Below, piece after piece: positions 2-30,134 of a stretch of DNA of 64,000 bases. The notes beneath the pieces were generated by a model, which did not search any database, was not told the origin of the DNA, and saw only the letters and a program-made list of their open reading frames with translations. Position numbers and translations under genes: made by a program. Numbering within the stretch: the stretch's first letter is position 1; each line of letters begins with the position of its first letter. Source of the stretch: Bacteroidota bacterium (GTDB lineage Bacteria > Bacteroidota > Ignavibacteria > Kapaibacteriales > HRBIN21); the NCBI GenBank assembly GCA_030550395.1, contig JAUQPL010000009.1:1-64000 (forward strand), in the 5' to 3' direction.

Positions 2-1486
2 GCAGAAATCACGGTTGCTGTTCCCGAGGGGTTCATCGTAGCTTCCAACGGATGGCTGGACACGGTCATAACCGTTCCGGGTACGTTGCCCGGGGTTGAA
101 CGGGTGCTGCTATATCGGTGGAGGGACACTGTGCCGATAGCGACGTACTTGATGGTCATTCATGCTTCACGGTATGCGCATTTTCGTGATGAATATCGGC
201 GTTCCGATGGGAGTCGGGTTCCGCTGTGGTATTACGTGTGGGCACGCGACGTAGAGAGCCCCGATACGACAGGGAGGCGATACAATGCTCGGTATGCTTT
301 TCGGGATGTTCCAGAGATGATGCGGGCGTACGAGAGCTTTTTCGGGCCATATCCTTTTGTCAAGTACGGCATGGCGGCTGTCCAGCCGTTTGCTTACGGC
401 GGAATGGAACACCAGACGATGACAACCGTTAACCGTTCATGGCTTCGGGGATGGGCTGAATTAGGCATTGCCCACGAGTTAGCACACCATTGGCTGGGGG
501 ATTTGGTCAGTTGTGCGACGTGGAAGGATATATGGCTCAACGAGGGTGGAGCGACGTGGTCGGAAGCTCTGTGGTTGGAATGGCGACGGGGAATTGGGGC
601 TTATCAGGAGCGTATGGAACAAGCTCGCAGTGAGTATCTACGGCAATATCCGAGGGTGATGCAATTACCTCTCTATGCCCCTCCCCGCGAGCTCATCTTC
701 TTCTACGCTACCACCTATGCCAAGGCAGCATGGGTTTACCATATGATGCGCCGGATGGTGGGGGATAGTCTCTTCTTCCCCGCACTCCGGGCGTATTTCC
801 AGCATTATCGGTATGGGGCGGCAGAGACAGAGGACTTGTTGTCGGTGTTGCAAAGGGAGATTCCTAACCCGCCGGTGTCGTGGCGAACTTTCTTTGACCA
901 GTGGGTCTACAGTGCTGGGCATCCGATTGTGGAGATTTATCCTACGGTTTCCTCGCTGGGTGATGGTCGGTATTGGGTACGGTGTTTGGTGCGGCAGGTG
1001 CAGACTGGGGATATGGTACCGGAGGTGTTTGTGATGCCGTGGAAGCTGCGGTTTCGCAATCTTTCCGGCAACGGCGCTGAGTGGGAGTTTGTGAGCACAG
1101 AGCGGGAGCAGGTGGTGGAGGGGATGTTGTCGTTTTTGCCAACTTCTGTGGAGTTGAATCGGGAAGATGTCTTGTGTGAGTACTCCGTGTTTCCGGTATC
1201 GGTTGCTTTGGAGGGGTTAGGAGATGTGGGGCTTCGGATTTTGCCGGAGCCAGCCTCGGGGGGAGCTGTCGTAGAGTTTGAGGTAGTGCGGGAGGGAGAG
1301 GTGGAGATAGAGGTAGTGACGCTGACAGGGGCATGTGTGAAGGTGCACCGGAGCTTTATGGTAAAGGGGATATATCGGTTGCCGTTGTCTTTGGAGCGGT
1401 TGGGGGCCGCGGCGGGTGTATATGGGGTTCGGCTGAAGGTGGATGGGCGTGTCGTGGCAGCGAAGGTGTTCCAGTGGAAACCGTAA
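2..1486 (+). CDS. M1 family metallopeptidase, secreted, 5'-truncated by window edge
   Basis: Zinc aminopeptidase of the gluzincin M1 family; it would remove N-terminal residues from peptides outside the cell or in the periplasm. The frame is open from base 2 without a start, so the N-terminus lies outside the window; an internal TTG at 86 is unlikely to be the start. The zinc motif HELAHHWLGD (bases about 473-502) is followed about 20 residues later by the third ligand in LNEGGATW, as in M1 enzymes, and upstream GGMEHQTMT matches the substrate-binding GxMEN-type loop. The last ~80 residues (LRILPEPASG, then a beta-rich segment with a late GVYGVRL) resemble a type IX secretion C-terminal sorting domain, which implies export and cell-surface attachment. 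The next gene starts 4 bases after the stop. Family assignment is firm; secretion route is inferred. Confidence 0.9.
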   Translation, partial: AEITVAVPEGFIVASNGWLDTVITVPGTLPGVERVLLYRWRDTVPIATYLMVIHASRYAHFRDEYRRSDGSRVPLWYYVWARDVESPDTTGRRYNARYAFRDVPEMMRAYESFFGPYPFVKYGMAAVQPFAYGGMEHQTMTTVNRSWLRGWAELGIAHELAHHWLGDLVSCATWKDIWLNEGGATWSEALWLEWRRGIGAYQERMEQARSEYLRQYPRVMQLPLYAPPRELIFFYATTYAKAAWVYHMMRRMVGDSLFFPALRAYFQHYRYGAAETEDLLSVLQREIPNPPVSWRTFFDQWVYSAGHPIVEIYPTVSSLGDGRYWVRCLVRQVQTGDMVPEVFVMPWKLRFRNLSGNGAEWEFVSTEREQVVEGMLSFLPTSVELNREDVLCEYSVFPVSVALEGLGDVGLRILPEPASGGAVVEFEVVREGEVEIEVVTLTGACVKVHRSFMVKGIYRLPLSLERLGAAAGVYGVRLKVDGRVVAAKVFQWKP

Positions 1487-22297: not shown

Positions 22298-22933
22298 TTA
22301 CAGGCTCCGGAGCACGTATGTTCGGTACAGTTCGTTGATCCGTCCCCAATGGAGATGGGATAGGAAGTTGTCCACGTAGCGGGCACGGGCGGGTCCGTCC
22401 TTGTGGTAGTAAGCATGCTCAAAGACATCGCAGGCGATCAGCGGAATGCCACCCCAGATAGCGCCGTAATGGTGCTCGTCTACCAGGACGTTGAGAAGGC
22501 GTCTGCTATAGAGCTGGTCATACACCAGCAGAGCCCAGCCTGAGAGTTTTGCCGAAAGAGCGGTTGCTTTGAAGTCTGCTTTCCAAGCCTCCAGGCTTCC
22601 GAATTCTCGCTCAATGGCTGCTACTACGTCCGGTCCTTTTGCTGGGTCTCCGTCTCCGCCGAGTACTTTCCAGTAGATGTCGTGAAGGAGGGCACCGGCG
22701 TGATTCCATGTGAAGCGGCGCTTGAGTTCCCCAATATGTGACCAGTTCCCGTTGGCTGCGGAGCGATCGGCCTTTTCCAACTCTTCTTCAATGCGGTTGA
22801 GGGCTGTGACGTAGCCCTTGTGATGCGTGTTGTAGTGCCAGTCAGAGGTTTCCGGAGAGATGACCTCTTTGAGGAGTTCACGAGCTTCTTCATCCGAATA
22901 CGGGCGCGGATTAAATTGCCAGACGTATGCCAT
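22298..22933 (-). CDS. Iron/manganese superoxide dismutase
   Basis: Dismutates superoxide to hydrogen peroxide and oxygen. The 211-residue protein has the four metal ligands H33 (in DWHYNTHHKGYV), H84 (in ALLHDIYW), D169 and H173 (in CDVFEHAYYHKDG). Differences from standard enzymes are DVFEHAYY rather than DVWEHAYY and the ALLHDIYW context of the second ligand, which resemble divergent archaeal-type Fe/MnSODs; I cannot tell iron from manganese from sequence. No signal peptide, so cytoplasmic. It follows the Suf operon by 32 bases on the same strand, which suggests joint expression under oxidative or iron stress. Confidence 0.93.
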   Translation of the reverse strand: MAYVWQFNPRPYSDEEARELLKEVISPETSDWHYNTHHKGYVTALNRIEEELEKADRSAANGNWSHIGELKRRFTWNHAGALLHDIYWKVLGGDGDPAKGPDVVAAIEREFGSLEAWKADFKATALSAKLSGWALLVYDQLYSRRLLNVLVDEHHYGAIWGGIPLIACDVFEHAYYHKDGPARARYVDNFLSHLHWGRINELYRTYVLRSL

Positions 22934-22965: not shown

Positions 22966-23355
22966 TCAGACAGCAAACGAGTGTCCACAGCCGCAGGTGC
23001 GGACTGCGTTTGGATTTCGGAAGGTAAAGCCGCGCTGGAGGAGACCGTCCGCAAAGTCCAGCGTCACGCCCATCAAGTAGAAGGCGCTTCGCTGGTCAAT
23101 GAAGACAGGGATACCAGCGGCATCCAGGACAAAGTCATCGGGGCGAGGCTGAGGATCAAAGCCTAAGACATAGGAGAATCCGGAGCATCCACCGCCGCGA
23201 ATCCCCATGCGGAGACCGTAGTGGGCAGGGATGTTCTGTTCCTGCCGAATGCGATGGAGTTCTTCTAGTGCTCGTGCCGTAATTGTGATCAGGTCACTGG
23301 TATCGGCACCTTCGATGGCAACGGAGAGCTGCACATCGCCGATAGCGGTCTTCAT
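22966..23355 (-). CDS. sufA: A-type iron-sulfur carrier protein (SufA/IscA/ErpA family)
   Basis: Carrier that receives Fe-S clusters from the scaffold and delivers them to apoproteins. The 129-residue protein keeps all three ligand cysteines: C57 in RGGGCSGF and C121/C123 in RTCGCGHSF. The core ITITARALEELHRI and ARSAFYLMGVTLDF-like segments are typical. Its ATG overlaps the stop of the Rrf2 regulator gene by four bases. The fused protein at 24143-24871 contains a second copy of this domain without cysteines; comparison of the two shows that this one is the functional carrier. Confidence 0.93.
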   Translation of the reverse strand: MKTAIGDVQLSVAIEGADTSDLITITARALEELHRIRQEQNIPAHYGLRMGIRGGGCSGFSYVLGFDPQPRPDDFVLDAAGIPVFIDQRSAFYLMGVTLDFADGLLQRGFTFRNPNAVRTCGCGHSFAV

Positions 23356-23774
23356 GCTGTCGGTTGCGCTTCTGTGTGTTCAACTAACTCAGCTAACGTT
23401 GTGGATTCCAAGACAGCTCGGAATCGGTCTTCTAAGACGCTCAAGGGACGGCGGATCGTGCAATGAGGGAAGAGCACGCATTGATTGGGCTCAGTACGGC
23501 ATTCTACCAAGCCGGTCCAGGAGTCCTCCACGGCCTCGATGATGGTGGCCAGGGTCAGTGATTGAGGGGGATGGAGGAGAACATAGCCTCCACGGACACC
23601 ATGCTGTGCATGGACAATGCCGGCACGGCACAGTTGTTGCAAGACCTTTGCCAGGAACTCAGGGGAGAGGTGGTAAACGTGGGCAATCTCCCGAACGGAA
23701 CTCACCCGGCGCCGGCGGGCTAAGTACTGGAGCGCCAGGAGAGCATACTCTATGCGACGAGATAGGCGCAGCAT
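23352..23774 (-). CDS. Rrf2-family transcriptional regulator, likely Fe-S sensing
   Basis: 140-residue winged-helix regulator of the Rrf2 family (IscR/SufR/RsrR group). The N-terminal helix-turn-helix (SRRIEYALLALQYLARR, VSSVREIAHVYHLSPEFLAKVLQQL) is followed by a beta wing VRGGYVLLHPP. Three cysteines at 92, 99 and 105 (spacing C-x6-C-x5-C) match the cluster-binding cysteines of IscR (92, 98, 104), so it could bind a [2Fe-2S] cluster and repress the Suf operon when clusters are plentiful. Located inside that operon, overlapping sufA by four bases and the ferredoxin gene stop as TAATG. A candidate operator lies upstream of sufB at 30191-30203. Autoregulation is inferred. Confidence 0.92.
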   Translation of the reverse strand: MLRLSRRIEYALLALQYLARRRRVSSVREIAHVYHLSPEFLAKVLQQLCRAGIVHAQHGVRGGYVLLHPPQSLTLATIIEAVEDSWTGLVECRTEPNQCVLFPHCTIRRPLSVLEDRFRAVLESTTLAELVEHTEAQPTA

Positions 23775-24115
23775 TACTGATCGTAGTCAACCACAATCCG
23801 TTCGGTCAAAGGGATGGCTTGGCAGGTGAGGATGTAACCTTGGGCAACCTCTTCTTCCGTGAGGGCATCATTGATTTCCATACGGACACGCCCCTCCATG
23901 AGTTTGGCACGGCACGTAGCGCAGTAGCCACTTAGGCATGAATGAGGAGCATCCAGTCCAGCTTCAATAGCAGCATAGAGGATATGCTCGCTTGGTTTCA
24001 TCGTGAAGGAGTGCTCCTCACCGTAAAGGCGGGCAATCACCTGCACTGCCGATAGAGGGAGCCCATCGATTTTCTGCTGCTCTTCGGTCGGAGGGGGACT
24101 CTGTGTATCGGCCAT
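23774..24115 (-). CDS. [2Fe-2S] ferredoxin
   Basis: 113-residue plant-type [2Fe-2S] ferredoxin. Ligands are C60, C65 and C68 in the SCLSGYCATCRAKL motif (C-x4-C-x2-C) and C98 in ILTCQAIP. The sequence around the cluster, with a short SG-Y-C loop, resembles the C-terminal ferredoxin domain of PaaE-type reductases more than Isc ferredoxin, but here it stands alone. Within the Suf operon it could supply electrons for cluster assembly or for the Fe-S enzymes; this role is inferred from position. Start ATG at 24115 is followed by an acidic, proline-rich N-terminal tail of about 18 residues. Confidence 0.93.
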   Translation of the reverse strand: MADTQSPPPTEEQQKIDGLPLSAVQVIARLYGEEHSFTMKPSEHILYAAIEAGLDAPHSCLSGYCATCRAKLMEGRVRMEINDALTEEEVAQGYILTCQAIPLTERIVVDYDQ

Positions 24116-24142: not shown

Positions 24143-24871
24143 TTACAGCAGACCCAATTGGAGGCGAGCCGCTTCGGACATCATCCCCATGTGCCATGGG
24201 GGCTCAAAGGTCAGTTCTACGGTTACATTGCCTACTCCCGGGACCTGGCGGACGGCGTCTTCTACCTGGCGTGGCAGCAGATCGGCCACTGGGCATGCTG
24301 GAGCGGTCACCGTCATAGTGATGTGGACGTTGTTGTGAGGGTCAATGTCAATTCGGTAGATGAGCCCTAAGTCCCAAATATTGACGGGGATTTCGGGATC
24401 GTAGCAGGTCTTTAGCGCTTCAATGATGCCGGTGCGCAGGGCATCTTCCGAAGCTGCAGCATCAGCGGGCTTCCCGGAGCGCCGGGCCGTGGGCTCCCGG
24501 AATAGAAAACCTCGGCCAGATGGACCGTCGGTGTAGTCTAGAGTAACGCCCATAAGGTAGAAGATGCTACGAGCGTCCACGACGAAACGGAGGTCGTCTA
24601 CTGGGAACTCGTAATCTTCGGGACGGACGCTGGCATCAAAGCCGAGTGTATACGGTACTCGTCGTGGCATCGGTCCGGTTCGGATGCCGATGCGGACAAC
24701 GTAGTGCTCGGGGAGGTGGTTCAGCTGGCGCAGTTCGCGCAGCGCCTCCAGCGCTCGTTCGGTGACGAAAATATCATCCTCCGAGGTTGCCCCTTCAATG
24801 AAATGACTGACGGGCAAGGAGCGCGTCGGCAGTTCCAGCGCCATAGGTCCTATGTTGGTGGACTCGGCCAT
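24143..24871 (-). CDS. sufT: Fusion: cysteine-less SufA-like domain + SufT (MIP18/DUF59) domain
   Basis: 242 residues with two domains. Residues about 30-135 follow the A-type carrier SufA closely (VTERALEALRELRQL, ARSIFYLMGVTLDYTDG, RGFLFREP), but every ligand position is lost: RIGIRTGPMPRR replaces RMGIRGGGCSGF, and the C-terminal CGC motif is absent (FREPTARRSGK). Residues about 145-242 are a MIP18/DUF59 domain (SufT) with CYDPEIPVNIWDLGLIY and the conserved cysteine 193 in TAPACPVADLL. SufT proteins assist late Fe-S maturation. The fused domain may serve as a docking module for the neighbouring SufA or scaffold; this is a hypothesis. The reading frame is intact across the junction. Between sufU and the ferredoxin gene in the Suf operon. 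Confidence 0.88.
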   Translation of the reverse strand: MAESTNIGPMALELPTRSLPVSHFIEGATSEDDIFVTERALEALRELRQLNHLPEHYVVRIGIRTGPMPRRVPYTLGFDASVRPEDYEFPVDDLRFVVDARSIFYLMGVTLDYTDGPSGRGFLFREPTARRSGKPADAAASEDALRTGIIEALKTCYDPEIPVNIWDLGLIYRIDIDPHNNVHITMTVTAPACPVADLLPRQVEDAVRQVPGVGNVTVELTFEPPWHMGMMSEAARLQLGLL

Positions 24872-24881
24872 GGTGGTGGGT

Positions 24882-25325
24882 TTATTCCGTTGTTACGGTC
24901 TCCGGTACCTGTTGGAGGGCTGCTCGCAGCGTATGCCATCCCAGTGTTGCACATTTGACTCGTGAGGGAAATTCCCGGACTCCGGCGAAAGCGTCCAGGA
25001 GATCCAGCTCTGAGTTCGGCGGCTCCTTGCCAGTTACGATACGCTGGAAGCGCTCACAGAGGGCTTCCGCTTCTGCCATAGTTTTCCCTTTGACGAGTGT
25101 CGTCATAACGGATGCGGAGGCTTGAGAAATAGCGCATCCGCTACCACGGAAGCGAATCTCCGTGATGCGTCCCTCTTCTATGCGGAGCGCAACCTCCAAT
25201 CGGTCACCGCAGAGTGGATTGTGTCCTTCGGCACGATGAGTAGCCTCTGGTAACTCTCCAAAATTACGGGGATTGCGGTAGTGCTCTAAAATGATTTGCT
25301 GGTAGAGTTCCCGCAGCTCTTCCAT
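24882..25325 (-). CDS. sufU: Iron-sulfur cluster scaffold SufU
   Basis: 147-residue SufU-type scaffold or sulfur acceptor from SufS. It has the three conserved cysteines in HNPLCGDRL, GSGCAISQASASV and VKCATLGWHTL, the last of which is the SufU-specific form of the C-terminal motif. The insertion between the second and third cysteine motifs (relative to IscU) is typical of SufU. Start ATG 25325 lies 4 bases from the sufS stop. Operon context (sufS upstream, sufB-C-D further up) supports assignment to a SufBCD-type machine with SufU in place of SufE. Confidence 0.95.
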   Translation of the reverse strand: MEELRELYQQIILEHYRNPRNFGELPEATHRAEGHNPLCGDRLEVALRIEEGRITEIRFRGSGCAISQASASVMTTLVKGKTMAEAEALCERFQRIVTGKEPPNSELDLLDAFAGVREFPSRVKCATLGWHTLRAALQQVPETVTTE

Positions 25326-25329
25326 TTCG

Positions 25330-26589
25330 CTATCCCCGGAATAGCTCTATAGCTTTCTGGACGGCAGCCACTAAGCGGTCAATCTCCTCCGGCGTGTTGT
25401 ATAGGGCGAAGGATGCCCGTGCAGTTGCCGGTATACCGAAGAAATCCATCACTGGTTGCGTGCAGTGATGTCCGACGCGGATGGCAATTCCTTCGCGGTC
25501 GGCAATTGTTCCCAGGTCGTGGGGATGGATACCCTCCACTGTGAAGGAGACAATGGAAGCCTTGTGCCGTGCAGTCCCAATGATCCGTACTCCTGGGATA
25601 CTTTCCAGCTGCTCGGTAGCGTATGCCAATAGCTGTTGCTCATGGGCAGCGATTCGCTCCAGACCTAAACTTTGAACATACTCCAGGGCGGCCTTTAGCC
25701 CGATGGCACCGGCAATATTCGGCGTTCCTGCCTCGAACTTGTATGGCACTTCGTTATAGAGAGTTCGCTCAAAGGTGACAGAGCGAATCATGTCTCCGCC
25801 ACCTTGGTATGGGGGAAACTCTTCCAACCAGTACCGTTTGGCGTAGAGTACGCCGATGCCAGTGGGACCGTAGACCTTGTGCCCGGAGAAGGCATAGAAG
25901 TCACAGTCCAGCTCCTGTATGTTAACCGGTAGGTGGGCAACAGCTTGTGCCCCATCGACCAAGACGGGAATACCGTACTCGTGGGCTTTGCCAATGAGTT
26001 CTCTCACGGGGTTGATTGTCCCAAGGGAGTTAGAAACATGGACGACAGCCAATAGGGCTGTTCGTTCGGTGAAAAGCTCATCCTCGTGGTCCAACTTTAG
26101 CTCCCCGCTTGCGGTGATAGGAATCACGCGCAGCCGAGCGCCTGTCTGCTCTGCAGCAAGCTGCCAAGGAACGATGTTGGAGTGGTGTTCCATTTGAGTC
26201 AGGAGGATTTCCAGGCCAGCTCGAAGGCGCGTCCGTGCCATGCAGTGAGCCACTAAGTTGATAGCTTCTGTCGTACCGCGGACAAACACAATCTCCTGGG
26301 GGGAAGCTGCACCAATGAATCGCTGCACGGTGCGCCGAGCATCTTCGTAGAGTTCCGTGGCTTGCTCGCTGAGGTAATAGACTCCACGGTGGACATTGCT
26401 GTTGAGTTCGCTGTAGAAGTGCTGCAGGGTTTCAATGACAACGCGTGGCTTCTGTGTTGTGGCGGCGTTGTCTAAGTAGACCAGCGGTTTACCGTAGACG
26501 GTGCGGTGGAGGATAGGAAAGTCTGCTCGCCATGCTGCTACGACTTCCTCCGGTACAGTGACGGAGGCCAGCAGGGAGGGGTTGGTCAT
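25330..26589 (-). CDS. sufS: Cysteine desulfurase SufS
   Basis: PLP enzyme that extracts sulfur from cysteine as a persulfide and passes it to SufU. The 419-residue product has LDNAATTQKP, HSNIVPWQ, the PLP aspartate in LVDGAQAVAHLP, the Schiff-base lysine in AFSGHKVYGPTG, and the active-site cysteine in RVGHHCTQPVMDFFG. I place the start at ATG 26589, where ATGA overlaps the sufD stop; an in-frame start further upstream would reach into sufD. Group II desulfurase features (short active-site loop) fit SufS rather than IscS. Confidence 0.97.
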   Translation of the reverse strand: MTNPSLLASVTVPEEVVAAWRADFPILHRTVYGKPLVYLDNAATTQKPRVVIETLQHFYSELNSNVHRGVYYLSEQATELYEDARRTVQRFIGAASPQEIVFVRGTTEAINLVAHCMARTRLRAGLEILLTQMEHHSNIVPWQLAAEQTGARLRVIPITASGELKLDHEDELFTERTALLAVVHVSNSLGTINPVRELIGKAHEYGIPVLVDGAQAVAHLPVNIQELDCDFYAFSGHKVYGPTGIGVLYAKRYWLEEFPPYQGGGDMIRSVTFERTLYNEVPYKFEAGTPNIAGAIGLKAALEYVQSLGLERIAAHEQQLLAYATEQLESIPGVRIIGTARHKASIVSFTVEGIHPHDLGTIADREGIAIRVGHHCTQPVMDFFGIPATARASFALYNTPEEIDRLVAAVQKAIELFRG

Positions 26590-27884
26590 GGCTTGACAGC
26601 TTGAAGGTGAGTCCGTTCGGCGATCAAGATGTCGGCATATTCCCAAAGTGCTGCGTCGGAAAGGGACTTCAAGGGTTCGCTCAGGAAGGCGTGTAACAGT
26701 AGAGCTCGTGCATAGTCAAGAGGGATACCGCGAGAGCGCATGTAGAAGAGAGCATCTTCGTCCAGCGAACCCACAGTAGCCCCATGCGTACAGCGGACGT
26801 CATCGGCATAGATCTCCAATTGTGGTCGAGCATTGACGGTAGCCTTCTCTGACAGCAGGACCGCACGGTGTGATTGGTATGCATTCGTCTTTTGCGCCCT
26901 TGGATGGACGTAGATGCGCCCCGTGAAGGTCACGGTTGCCTGGGCATCGGCAATGGATTTGTAAAGCTGGTTGCTGAGACATTGCTCCGCCTGGTGCTCT
27001 ACCTGAGTGCGGTGATCAACGATTTGCTGTCCGCTCACCATGGTTGCTCCGAACAATTGAGTTTCAGCACCCGGCGCAGCAAGGCGAATATACAGATTGT
27101 TTCGTATCAAAGCCCCACCCAGGGCAAGGGTCCAAACGGTCAGTCGGGCAGAGCGATCCAGTTCCGCACCGACGGTTGTAATAAGGAAGGATTCCGATGG
27201 CTCTGTTTGCCAGAGGATAAGCTCCAGGTCGGAATTGGGCGCAAGACGGACTTCTGCAACGAAGTTCGTTAGGCTCGGGTAGCTCCCGAGGGTATGGAAG
27301 CTGAGTAAAACCCGCCCACGTGCTTCCGGTTCTAAGGTGAGGCAGAGCCGCGGTTGAGATAGCTGTGGTTCCTCCACAGCGCTTGTTACAACAGCAATGT
27401 GGAGGATTTCCTTCGCCTGTCCAGCAAGTGAAAGGGTTGCAACGTCAGGAGCAAACGCCGTATTGAGGGCAATGAAGGTTTCTGCGTCAGGGCGGAGGAT
27501 TTCTCCTAGCCAAGGGGGGACTTCGCCGTCACTGTAAAGCAGACTGTCCAGGCGCACATAAGGTGGTAGGGATGCGACAACGGGAATCCCGGTCAACATC
27601 CATATATGTGGGCCTGGGAGGCTTTCCAATGCGGGAAGTTGGGAAAGGAGGGACGAGGTTTCTGCTGGAGATGGGGGTTCAATTCGGTATGCCGGGCGGA
27701 GGACGGGAGCTAAACTGGTGTACTTCCAGTCCTCATGGCGAGAGGTGGGGAAGCCCATCTTCTGGAATGCCTCCAACGCAATACGGCGGAGAGGATGGTG
27801 CGGACTCCAGCGGTGATGGTTGCTCTCCTGAAGCCAGCGATGGAAGGTTTCGACCAGGCGAGTTTGCAGTTCGGTAGTAGCCAT
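26586..27884 (-). CDS. sufD: Fe-S cluster assembly protein SufD
   Basis: SufD subunit of the SufBC2D scaffold complex, 432 residues. It shows the SufBD beta-helix region with MVSGQQIVDHRTQVEHQAEQCLSNQ-like sequence broken across the helix, GRIYVHPRAQKTNAYQ, the conserved RPQLEIYADDVRCTHGATVGSLDEDALFYMRSRGI stretch (about residues 350-385), and the C-terminal helices. The conserved histidine of CTHGATVG is present. SufD stabilises SufB and promotes iron loading. It sits 2 bases after sufC and overlaps sufS. Confidence 0.96.
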   Translation of the reverse strand: MATTELQTRLVETFHRWLQESNHHRWSPHHPLRRIALEAFQKMGFPTSRHEDWKYTSLAPVLRPAYRIEPPSPAETSSLLSQLPALESLPGPHIWMLTGIPVVASLPPYVRLDSLLYSDGEVPPWLGEILRPDAETFIALNTAFAPDVATLSLAGQAKEILHIAVVTSAVEEPQLSQPRLCLTLEPEARGRVLLSFHTLGSYPSLTNFVAEVRLAPNSDLELILWQTEPSESFLITTVGAELDRSARLTVWTLALGGALIRNNLYIRLAAPGAETQLFGATMVSGQQIVDHRTQVEHQAEQCLSNQLYKSIADAQATVTFTGRIYVHPRAQKTNAYQSHRAVLLSEKATVNARPQLEIYADDVRCTHGATVGSLDEDALFYMRSRGIPLDYARALLLHAFLSEPLKSLSDAALWEYADILIAERTHLQAVKP

Positions 27885-27886
27885 GG

Positions 27887-28675
27887 CTACGAAATACTTG
27901 GGAGAACAAGCTCTTCACCTTCGGCACGCAGCCAATCATAGCCCCGTTCCTCTAACTGCAGTGCCAATTCTTTGCCACCCGAACGGACGATGCGTCCATC
28001 GTAGAGCACATGGACAACATCGGGGACAATGTAGTTAAGCAGGCGCTGATAGTGCGTGATGACCACGAAAGAGCGCTCGGGTGAACGCATGCGGTTGACA
28101 CCGGAGGCGACAACTTTGAGTGCGTCAATGTCCAAGCCGGAATCAGTTTCATCTAAAATCGCCAACTGCGGTTCCAGAAGTAGCAATTGGAAGATTTCGT
28201 TCCGTTTTTTCTCACCGCCGGAGAAGCTCTCATTGACACCGCGTTGGAGGAACTCAGGATCAATCCCGACCCAAGACATGCGCTCCCGGGCTATCTTCAG
28301 GAAGGCGATCGGGTCTAAAGGTTCTTGTCCGCGCGCTTTCCGGATTTCGTTGAGAGCCGTCCGGAGGAAGGTCGCCATAGTAACTCCTGGGATTTCTACC
28401 GGATACTGGAATGCCAGGAAGAGCCCAGCCCGGGCTCGTTCTTCAGGCTCCATCTCCAGAAGGTTCATTCCATTGTACAGAACCTCGCCTTCCAGGATGT
28501 CGTAGCCTTCGCGTCCTGCTAAGACGGCCGCCAGTGTACTTTTCCCTGAGCCGTTCGGTCCCATAATAGCATGGACCTCGCCACGGCGGACTTCTAAGTC
28601 CACTCCATGGAGGATCTCTTTGCCTTCGACAGCAACCCGGAGGTTGCGAATGATGAGAATGTTGTCCATAGGCAT
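27887..28675 (-). CDS. sufC: Fe-S cluster assembly ATPase SufC
   Basis: ABC-type ATPase of the SufBC2D complex, 262 residues. Walker A is GPNGSGKSTLAAVLAG, the Q-loop lies in FLAFQYPVEIPGV, the signature is SFSGGEKKRNEI and Walker B is LAILDETDSGLDIDALK. The SufC-specific GREGYDILEG and ETDSGLD sequences exclude a transport ATPase. The start may be ATG 28675 or ATG 28669 (product beginning MDNILI). Co-transcribed with sufB (13-base gap upstream) and sufD. Confidence 0.98.
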   Translation of the reverse strand: MPMDNILIIRNLRVAVEGKEILHGVDLEVRRGEVHAIMGPNGSGKSTLAAVLAGREGYDILEGEVLYNGMNLLEMEPEERARAGLFLAFQYPVEIPGVTMATFLRTALNEIRKARGQEPLDPIAFLKIARERMSWVGIDPEFLQRGVNESFSGGEKKRNEIFQLLLLEPQLAILDETDSGLDIDALKVVASGVNRMRSPERSFVVITHYQRLLNYIVPDVVHVLYDGRIVRSGGKELALQLEERGYDWLRAEGEELVLPSIS

Positions 28676-28688
28676 TGCACCTTGAGTT

Positions 28689-30134
28689 TTACCCTACACT
28701 TCCTTCCAAGGAGATTGCTAACAGTTTCTGTGCCTCAACAGCAAATTCCATAGGCAGATGGAGGAGGACCTCCCGGCAGTACCCATTGACAATCAGGGCG
28801 ACAGCGTCTTCTTCGGAAATGCCCCGCTGGCGGCAGTAAAAGAGCATATCGTCACCGATCTTGGAAGTTGTCGCCTCGTGTTCGGTAATCGCTGTAGGAT
28901 TCAGCACCTCAATGTAAGGGAAGGTGTGTGCCCCACAGGTATGACCAATCAGGAGTGAATCGCACTGGGTATAGTTGCGGGCATAATCGGCACCGCGAAG
29001 GACACGAACGAGTCCTCGGTATGTGTTGTTACTGCGCCCTGCAGCAATTCCTTTGGAGACGATCCGGCTCCGTGTGTGCCGCCCGATGTGAATCATTTTC
29101 GTACCAGTGTCAGCTTGTTGGTAGTTGTTTGTGACGGCGACAGAGTAAAACTCTCCGACGCTGCCATCCCCTTTCAGGATGACGCTGGGATACTTCCACG
29201 TGATGGCAGAGCCTGTCTCAACTTGGGTCCAGGAAATCTTGGACTCCTTCCCAAGGCAGATTCCGCGCTTGGTAACGAAGTTGTAAATACCACCCCGACC
29301 TTCGCGATCGCCGGGGTACCAGTTCTGTACGGTGGAGTACTTAATCTCGGCTCCGTCCAGTGCAATCAGTTCAACAACGGCGGCGTGGAGTTGGTTCTCG
29401 TCCCGTATCGGGGCTGTACATCCTTCTAGGTAGCTTACGTAGGAGCCTTCGTCAGCAATGATAAGAGTACGCTCAAACTGCCCTGTGCGGGCGGCATTAA
29501 TCCGGAAGTAGGTGGAAAGTTCCATTGGGCAGCGGACCCCCGGAGGGACGTAGACGAACGAACCATCGCTGAACACAGCAGAGTTCAGGGCAGCAAAGAA
29601 GTTGTCCGTATACGGAACTACAGAGCCCAGGTAGCGTTGTACCAGATCCGGATGCTGCTGAATTGCTTCACTCATGGAACAGAAGATAATTCCCAGTTCT
29701 GCTAACTTTTCCTTGAATGTGGTGGCGACAGAAGCACTGTCCAAAACCGCATCAACGGCAACTCCGGCTAATAACTTTTGCTCCTCCAGTGGGATGCCCA
29801 ATTTTTCAAAGATACGGCGGATTTCAGGGTCTACCTCGTCCAAGCTCTGCACTTGTCGCTTTTTCGGGGCGGCATAGTAGCGAATAGCTTGGTAATCAAT
29901 CGGGGGATAGGTAACCTTTGCCCATCGTGGCTCTTGCATCGTCTTCCAGTGCCGGAATGCGCGTAAACGCCACTCCAGCATCCACTCCGGCTCGCCCTTC
30001 CGCTCCCAGATGTAGTGGATGATCTCTTCGTTGAGCCCGACAGGGGCTAGCTCCTCTTCAATGTCGGCAACGAAACCGTACTTGTACTCAGAAGCAGTTA
30101 CTTGCTGAAGGAGTTCGTCCTGCTGAGTAGCCAT
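28689..30134 (-). CDS. sufB: Fe-S cluster assembly protein SufB
   Basis: Scaffold subunit on which the nascent cluster is assembled, 481 residues, first gene of the operon. Visible features include the N-terminal helical region ([20 protein letters not shown]), [29 protein letters not shown], the NWYPGD and VTKRGICLG strands, and the C-terminal [19 protein letters not shown] segment with the conserved cysteine and [15 protein letters not shown]. Length and motifs distinguish it from the shorter SufD encoded downstream. The 115 bases upstream of its ATG contain a 13-bp inverted repeat that may be an operator. Confidence 0.98.

Follow-up and report, generated by a model that had tools for sequence, protein, structure and literature searches.

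A SufT protein fused to a cysteine-less A-type carrier domain in genomes without Nfu

What might an A-type carrier fold that lacks all of its cysteine ligands contribute to SufT? The question is raised by a gene at 24143-24871 on the minus strand of the window (the whole stretch of 64,000 nucleotides analysed here), which encodes a protein of 242 aa that is the sole SufT of its genome. There is no settled view of the role of SufT (DUF59): Fe-S proteins depend on it, yet according to reports it binds neither iron nor a cluster. The open reading frame is uninterrupted, with no stop and no frameshift, and comprises three parts, all on the minus strand: a degenerate A-type carrier domain (ATC*; about residues 19-132, 24476-24817), a variable linker (about residues 133-142, 24446-24475) that replaces the CGCG tail of A-type carriers (ATCs), and a SufT/MIP18 (DUF59) domain (about residues 143-242, 24146-24445).

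The C-terminal ~100 residues match PF01883 (E 7e-23) and not the Nfu family PF01106, and this SufT part scores 144.2 bits with TIGR02945, above the cut-off of 143.4. The long-SufT profile TIGR03406 matched the DUF59 part alone and did not reach its cut-off (122.9 vs 202.6 bits), and the NfuA profile TIGR03341 gave 18 bits vs a cut-off of 269. The ATC-like stretch makes up the N-terminal ~115 residues and is recognised by TIGR00049 (E 1e-10) and PF01521 (E 8.5e-4), in both cases below the curated cut-off (41.5 vs 58.8 bits and 20.0 vs 26.3 bits, respectively). An AlphaFold2 model of the fusion (mean pLDDT 88, pTM 0.57) shows two folds separated by a low-confidence linker, with the lowest pLDDT at residues 131-133. 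ATC* has a well-defined ATC (HesB/IscA) fold in this model (pLDDT mostly 92-98), and a Foldseek search of the PDB matched it to the IscA/SufA structures 1nwb, 2d2a, 1s98 and 1x0g; the SufT domain matched the DUF59 structures 3cq2 and 3lno, and also 6tbl. The only cysteines of the protein, C156 and C193, lie within the SufT domain, leaving ATC* and the linker with none. C193, in the motif TAPACP, is equivalent to the conserved reactive cysteine C62 of the M. tuberculosis protein, and is invariant in all nine fusions described below.

The gene lies within a suf operon, all on the minus strand. Upstream of it are genes for SufB (28689-30134), SufC (27887-28675) and SufD (26586-27884), assigned from the ORF list and synteny in relatives, SufS (25330-26646 as listed, also syntenic in relatives) and SufU (24882-25325; TIGR01994, 157.6 bits). 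Downstream are a [2Fe-2S] ferredoxin (23774-24115; PF00111, E 1e-14), an Rrf2-family regulator (23352-23774; PF02082, E 2e-32), an intact SufA/ErpA-like ATC (22966-23355; TIGR00049, 109.5 bits) and, conserved at the operon end, a superoxide dismutase (SOD; 22298-22933; ORF list and synteny in relatives). The intact ATC has all three cysteine ligands and is the only one in the genome. It lies about 0.8 kb downstream of the fusion and is 47% identical to ATC* across query residues 19-132. Thus the original prediction, which described a cysteine-less SufA-like domain, homologous to the real SufA 0.8 kb downstream, joined to an intact MIP18/SufT domain with cysteine 193, agrees with the profile, structural and alignment data on each of these points.

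The operon typically runs SufB-C-D-S-U-SufT-ferredoxin-Rrf2-ATC-SOD across the order, with some variation, and in the window's family (f1) the fusion occupies the slot that holds plain sufT in families f4, f7 and others. A census with PF01883 found the fusion to be the only SufT in each of the nine genomes that carry it, DUF59 otherwise occurring in a PaaD-like protein and at the Mrp N-terminus (in genome G297, the census recovered two of the three DUF59 proteins). The PaaD-like protein has 167 aa and a cysteine-rich C-terminal end, and is found in every f1 genome (L003, G000:C14:455385-455654). The operon also varies at other positions. The ferredoxin at 23774-24115 is similar to the [2Fe-2S] portion at the C-terminus of PaaE, and several f3, f5 and f53 (sister-family) genomes have a protein of 350-400 aa with that domain in the same slot. 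Between Rrf2 and the ATC, f4 (L201, L202, L203) has a second SufS-like cysteine desulfurase, 25-29% identical to SufS. Finally, L144 (G379) encodes an extra ATC paralogue at 1059-1457 (-), with the C-terminal motif VNCGGCPIC instead of CGCG.

To determine how widespread this architecture is, we searched for further proteins that join an ATC domain to DUF59. Family f1 consists of one genus with six genomes, and all six encode a full-length fusion within the suf operon together with a separate, intact ATC; the relatives include L033, L034 (Bacterium HR21) and L035 (Candidatus Kapabacteria). With ATC* by itself as the query, a search of the order brought up a second family, f54, in which three of three nearly identical genomes encode a divergent fusion, 43-44% identical to the window protein, outside the suf operon and beside a dUTPase-like gene (L139 6733-7443 (-), L140 7124-7834 (+) and L141 5643-6353 (+)). 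Each of the nine fusion genomes, six from f1 and three from f54, has exactly one intact ATC, located in the same operon as the fusion in f1. The alignment of ligand positions across homologues that had been proposed as a check shows all three cysteine ligands to be absent from all nine fusions.

In other families of the order, SufT is plain and carries no A-type domain. No open full-length fusion was found beyond f1 and f54 among 391 genomes of the class and phylum-wide samples of 395 and 296 genomes, using single-sequence and profile searches, nor did 72,556 plasmid records yield any at a query cover of 80%; other phyla were covered by a contig pattern scan and the plasmids. As these searches covered genome samples alone, rarer fusions may exist elsewhere. 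Three candidates were set aside. Several genomes of f8 with matches spanning both domains have a stop between them, and the one inspected has an intact ATC gene adjoining sufT; a longer match in L049 (residues 83-242) comes from a normal SufT ORF whose upstream sequence aligns by chance; and a SufT-ATC frame in L045 contains ambiguous bases and retains the CGCG tail. SufT has a different N-terminal partner in f3, where an apparently SufE-like domain (identified by inspection) keeps its GCTS cysteine motif (L014 1498-2307 (-) in G059, L126 128-970 (-) in G232); SufU was not seen in the f3 operons examined.

The fusion might in principle be an assembly artefact, a frameshift or recent decay. All of the genomes are drafts in several to many contigs, and two of the records of the three named relatives (those with descriptive titles) are metagenome-assembled genomes (MAGs). 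However, the same uninterrupted ORF recurs with its ligands gone in nine genomes of two families. The frameshift between domains that had been named as a threat to the prediction is absent, since the same frame is uninterrupted in the five congeneric genomes, and the conserved ORFs together with the purifying selection described next rule out frameshift or decay. We regard an artefactual origin as so improbable that it can be set aside.

We then compared what ATC* has lost with what it has kept, taking as reference the columns that are at least 85% conserved among 26 intact ATCs of the order. In f1, ATC* retains nearly all of these core columns: T37, A40, P54, Y57, R60, G62, Y74, L76-D79, D86, D99, S102, F104, L106-G108, L111, D112, G121, F122, F124 and P127. 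Two sites depart from this. The first ligand loop, GGGCSG in true ATCs, is rewritten in the window protein as TGPMPRRV (residues 65-72, 24656-24679 (-)) and in f1 generally as [TSF]GPxxRR, one residue longer than the original, with GPxxRR invariant in all six congeners. The second is the CGCG tail, replaced in the fusions by the variable linker. The same two sites are gone from the f54 ATC*, where the loop instead reads RRFMARP; S-x-FYLMG, kept in f1, is also gone, so the two ATC* surfaces may differ in job. Among the six congeners, pN/pS is 0.22 for ATC*, 0.22 for SufU, 0.20 for SufS, 0.20 for the intact ATC and 0.15 for the SufT part, although synonymous sites are near saturation and the ratios therefore overstate dN/dS. 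The core of ATC* is under purifying selection, and the loss of ligands is focal.

The selected non-cluster role that was originally proposed for this domain is thus well supported, by the focal loss of the ligand sites, the lineage-conserved replacement motif, purifying selection, and recurrence in nine genomes of two families. Two alternatives were also considered. ATC* could be a structural add-on without a docking role, for instance one that stabilises SufT in heat, or a neutral rearrangement that stuck. Its confinement to two small families fits this, as does the suggestion, inferred from the name, that relatives such as bacterium HR21 are hot-spring MAGs. However, selection on ATC* is comparable to that on SufU and SufS, the replacement motif at the former cluster site is invariant, and other families of the order manage with plain SufT, which together make an add-on improbable. 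More improbable still is a reading in which ATC* uses ligands other than cysteine to hold iron or a cluster, or has a cluster in common with C156 and C193 of the SufT part. All six congeners conserve H52 and H56, and two cysteines are present in the SufT part of all nine fusions, but the histidines are not retained in f54 and a CYDPE motif occurs in unfused SufT proteins too.

Given the literature on NfuA and on Nfu and SufT, we also took a census of Nfu (PF01106). Of the order's 122 genomes, 105 encode Nfu, but the nine with the fusion all lack it. A Fisher test that ignores phylogeny gives p 2e-9 for this association. However, a tree of SufB, SufC and SufS places f54 as sister to f1 (support 90/87), with f4 next. 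As f1 and f54 are probably sister families, the fusion and the loss of Nfu may each represent one event, and this p value is not a fair measure. By genus, Nfu is absent from 4 of 51; counted as a single lineage, the fusion genomes would then lack it by chance with a probability of about 0.08, and counted as two independent lineages with one of about 0.005. Some genomes, G109 for example, have neither Nfu nor the fusion, and in five such genomes completeness is 90% or higher and contamination 5% or lower. Among the related families examined, f4 is the closest, and there nfu comes immediately after mrp. In the window's genome, mrp has two conserved ORFs behind it, ribosomal proteins L21 and L27 as judged by inspection, and no nfu. 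All nine fusion genomes encode LipA and Mrp, the latter in G297 with weak ParA matches only.

A grouping of the f1 and f54 ATC* domains in one clade (support 58/52) is neither shown nor rejected by the gene trees, and the same holds for a derivation of ATC* from the f1/f4/f54 ATC lineage (AU p 0.18-0.35). Likewise, the ATC* and SufT trees neither show nor reject a single origin.

On balance, we favour the reading that the fusion targets SufT and follows the NfuA plan, with the cluster-less ATC* docking and the SufT domain doing the work. By analogy, a role for ATC* as a docking surface is plausible, and the fusion probably steers SufT to partners in Nfu's place. ATC* would bind the partners of a true ATC, namely the intact ATC of the genome and/or apo-clients such as lipoyl synthase, and would thereby hold SufT at the point of cluster hand-over. 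The role of Nfu in late [4Fe-4S] maturation may have passed to the fusion in the lineages that carry it. The fusion could further represent a second, independent invention of the NfuA type, in which one copy of a duplicated carrier lost its cluster site, was fused to SufT and took the place of Nfu in late [4Fe-4S] delivery; this we put forward tentatively, as conceivable but somewhat doubtful.

A narrower version would make ATC* the heterodimer partner of the genome's own intact ATC, which would bring SufT to the loaded carrier and not to clients. Each fusion genome has a single intact ATC, in f1 within the same operon, the f1 ATC core including RS-x-F-x-LMG-x-TLDY is almost unchanged, and a complex between ErpA and NfuA has been reported (PMC8593673). 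However, S-x-FYLMG is gone from the f54 ATC* even though f54 genomes encode an intact ATC, and we consider this version rather unlikely.

A natural fusion of SufT with a dead A-type domain in Nfu-less genomes points to SufT acting at the late targeting step of NfuA, and provides a one-polypeptide tool for finding the partner of SufT. The fusion also suggests that Fe-S biogenesis can reuse "dead" A-type domains as docking modules.

How does the fusion compare with known systems? Its closest counterpart is NfuA (E. coli YhgI; TIGR03341), which likewise has a cysteine-less degenerate A-type N-terminus followed by another domain for Fe-S maturation. In E. coli NfuA, the A-type part has been described as "degenerated"; it is reported to carry no cluster and to direct NfuA to apo-proteins (PMC8593673). 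When aligned, E. coli NfuA has the same two focal changes as ATC*, with a loop that reads NPGTPNAE and a linker after PNA. In contrast, NfuA ends in an Nfu domain, with CxxC, that binds [4Fe-4S], while the fusion ends in SufT/DUF59, and a profile comparison between the fusion and NfuA gave no significant match. The likeness lies in the architecture and in which sites were lost, and does not prove common descent. Compared with true carriers (SufA/IscA/ErpA; PF01521, TIGR00049), ATC* shares the fold and core sequence, but lacks the three cysteine ligands and falls short of both curated cut-offs.

On the SufT side, the fusion resembles ordinary SufT (TIGR02945, SUF_assoc) in passing the curated cut-off, in its conserved cysteine and, in f1 though not f54, in its placement in the suf operon; plain SufT has no A-type domain, although some f3 genomes have SufE-SufT. 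The SufT of M. tuberculosis has SufS, SufU, Acn and SufR as partners, and interacts with SufS, SufU and 4Fe-4S clients via its conserved cysteine (PMC9045647); Nfu and SufT overlap, and in S. aureus they are synergistic (PMC4982691). The eukaryotic CIA targeting complex also uses a DUF59 protein in client targeting, CIA2/CIAO2B, which is related to the fusion by the structural match 6tbl but is partnered with CIAO1 and MMS19 and has no A-type domain. In Oligotropha carboxidovorans, OCA5_c02770 is reported to join SufT to an N-terminal domain from another Fe-S maturation factor (PMC4982691), although that domain is described as the N-terminus of Nfu, with no A-type fold identified. The original prediction knew of no described protein with this layout, which holds for a fusion of an ATC domain to SufT, but both the Nfu N-terminus-SufT protein and NfuA itself, a degenerate ATC joined to Nfu, come close. 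The combination of domains is new, while the underlying principle is known from NfuA.
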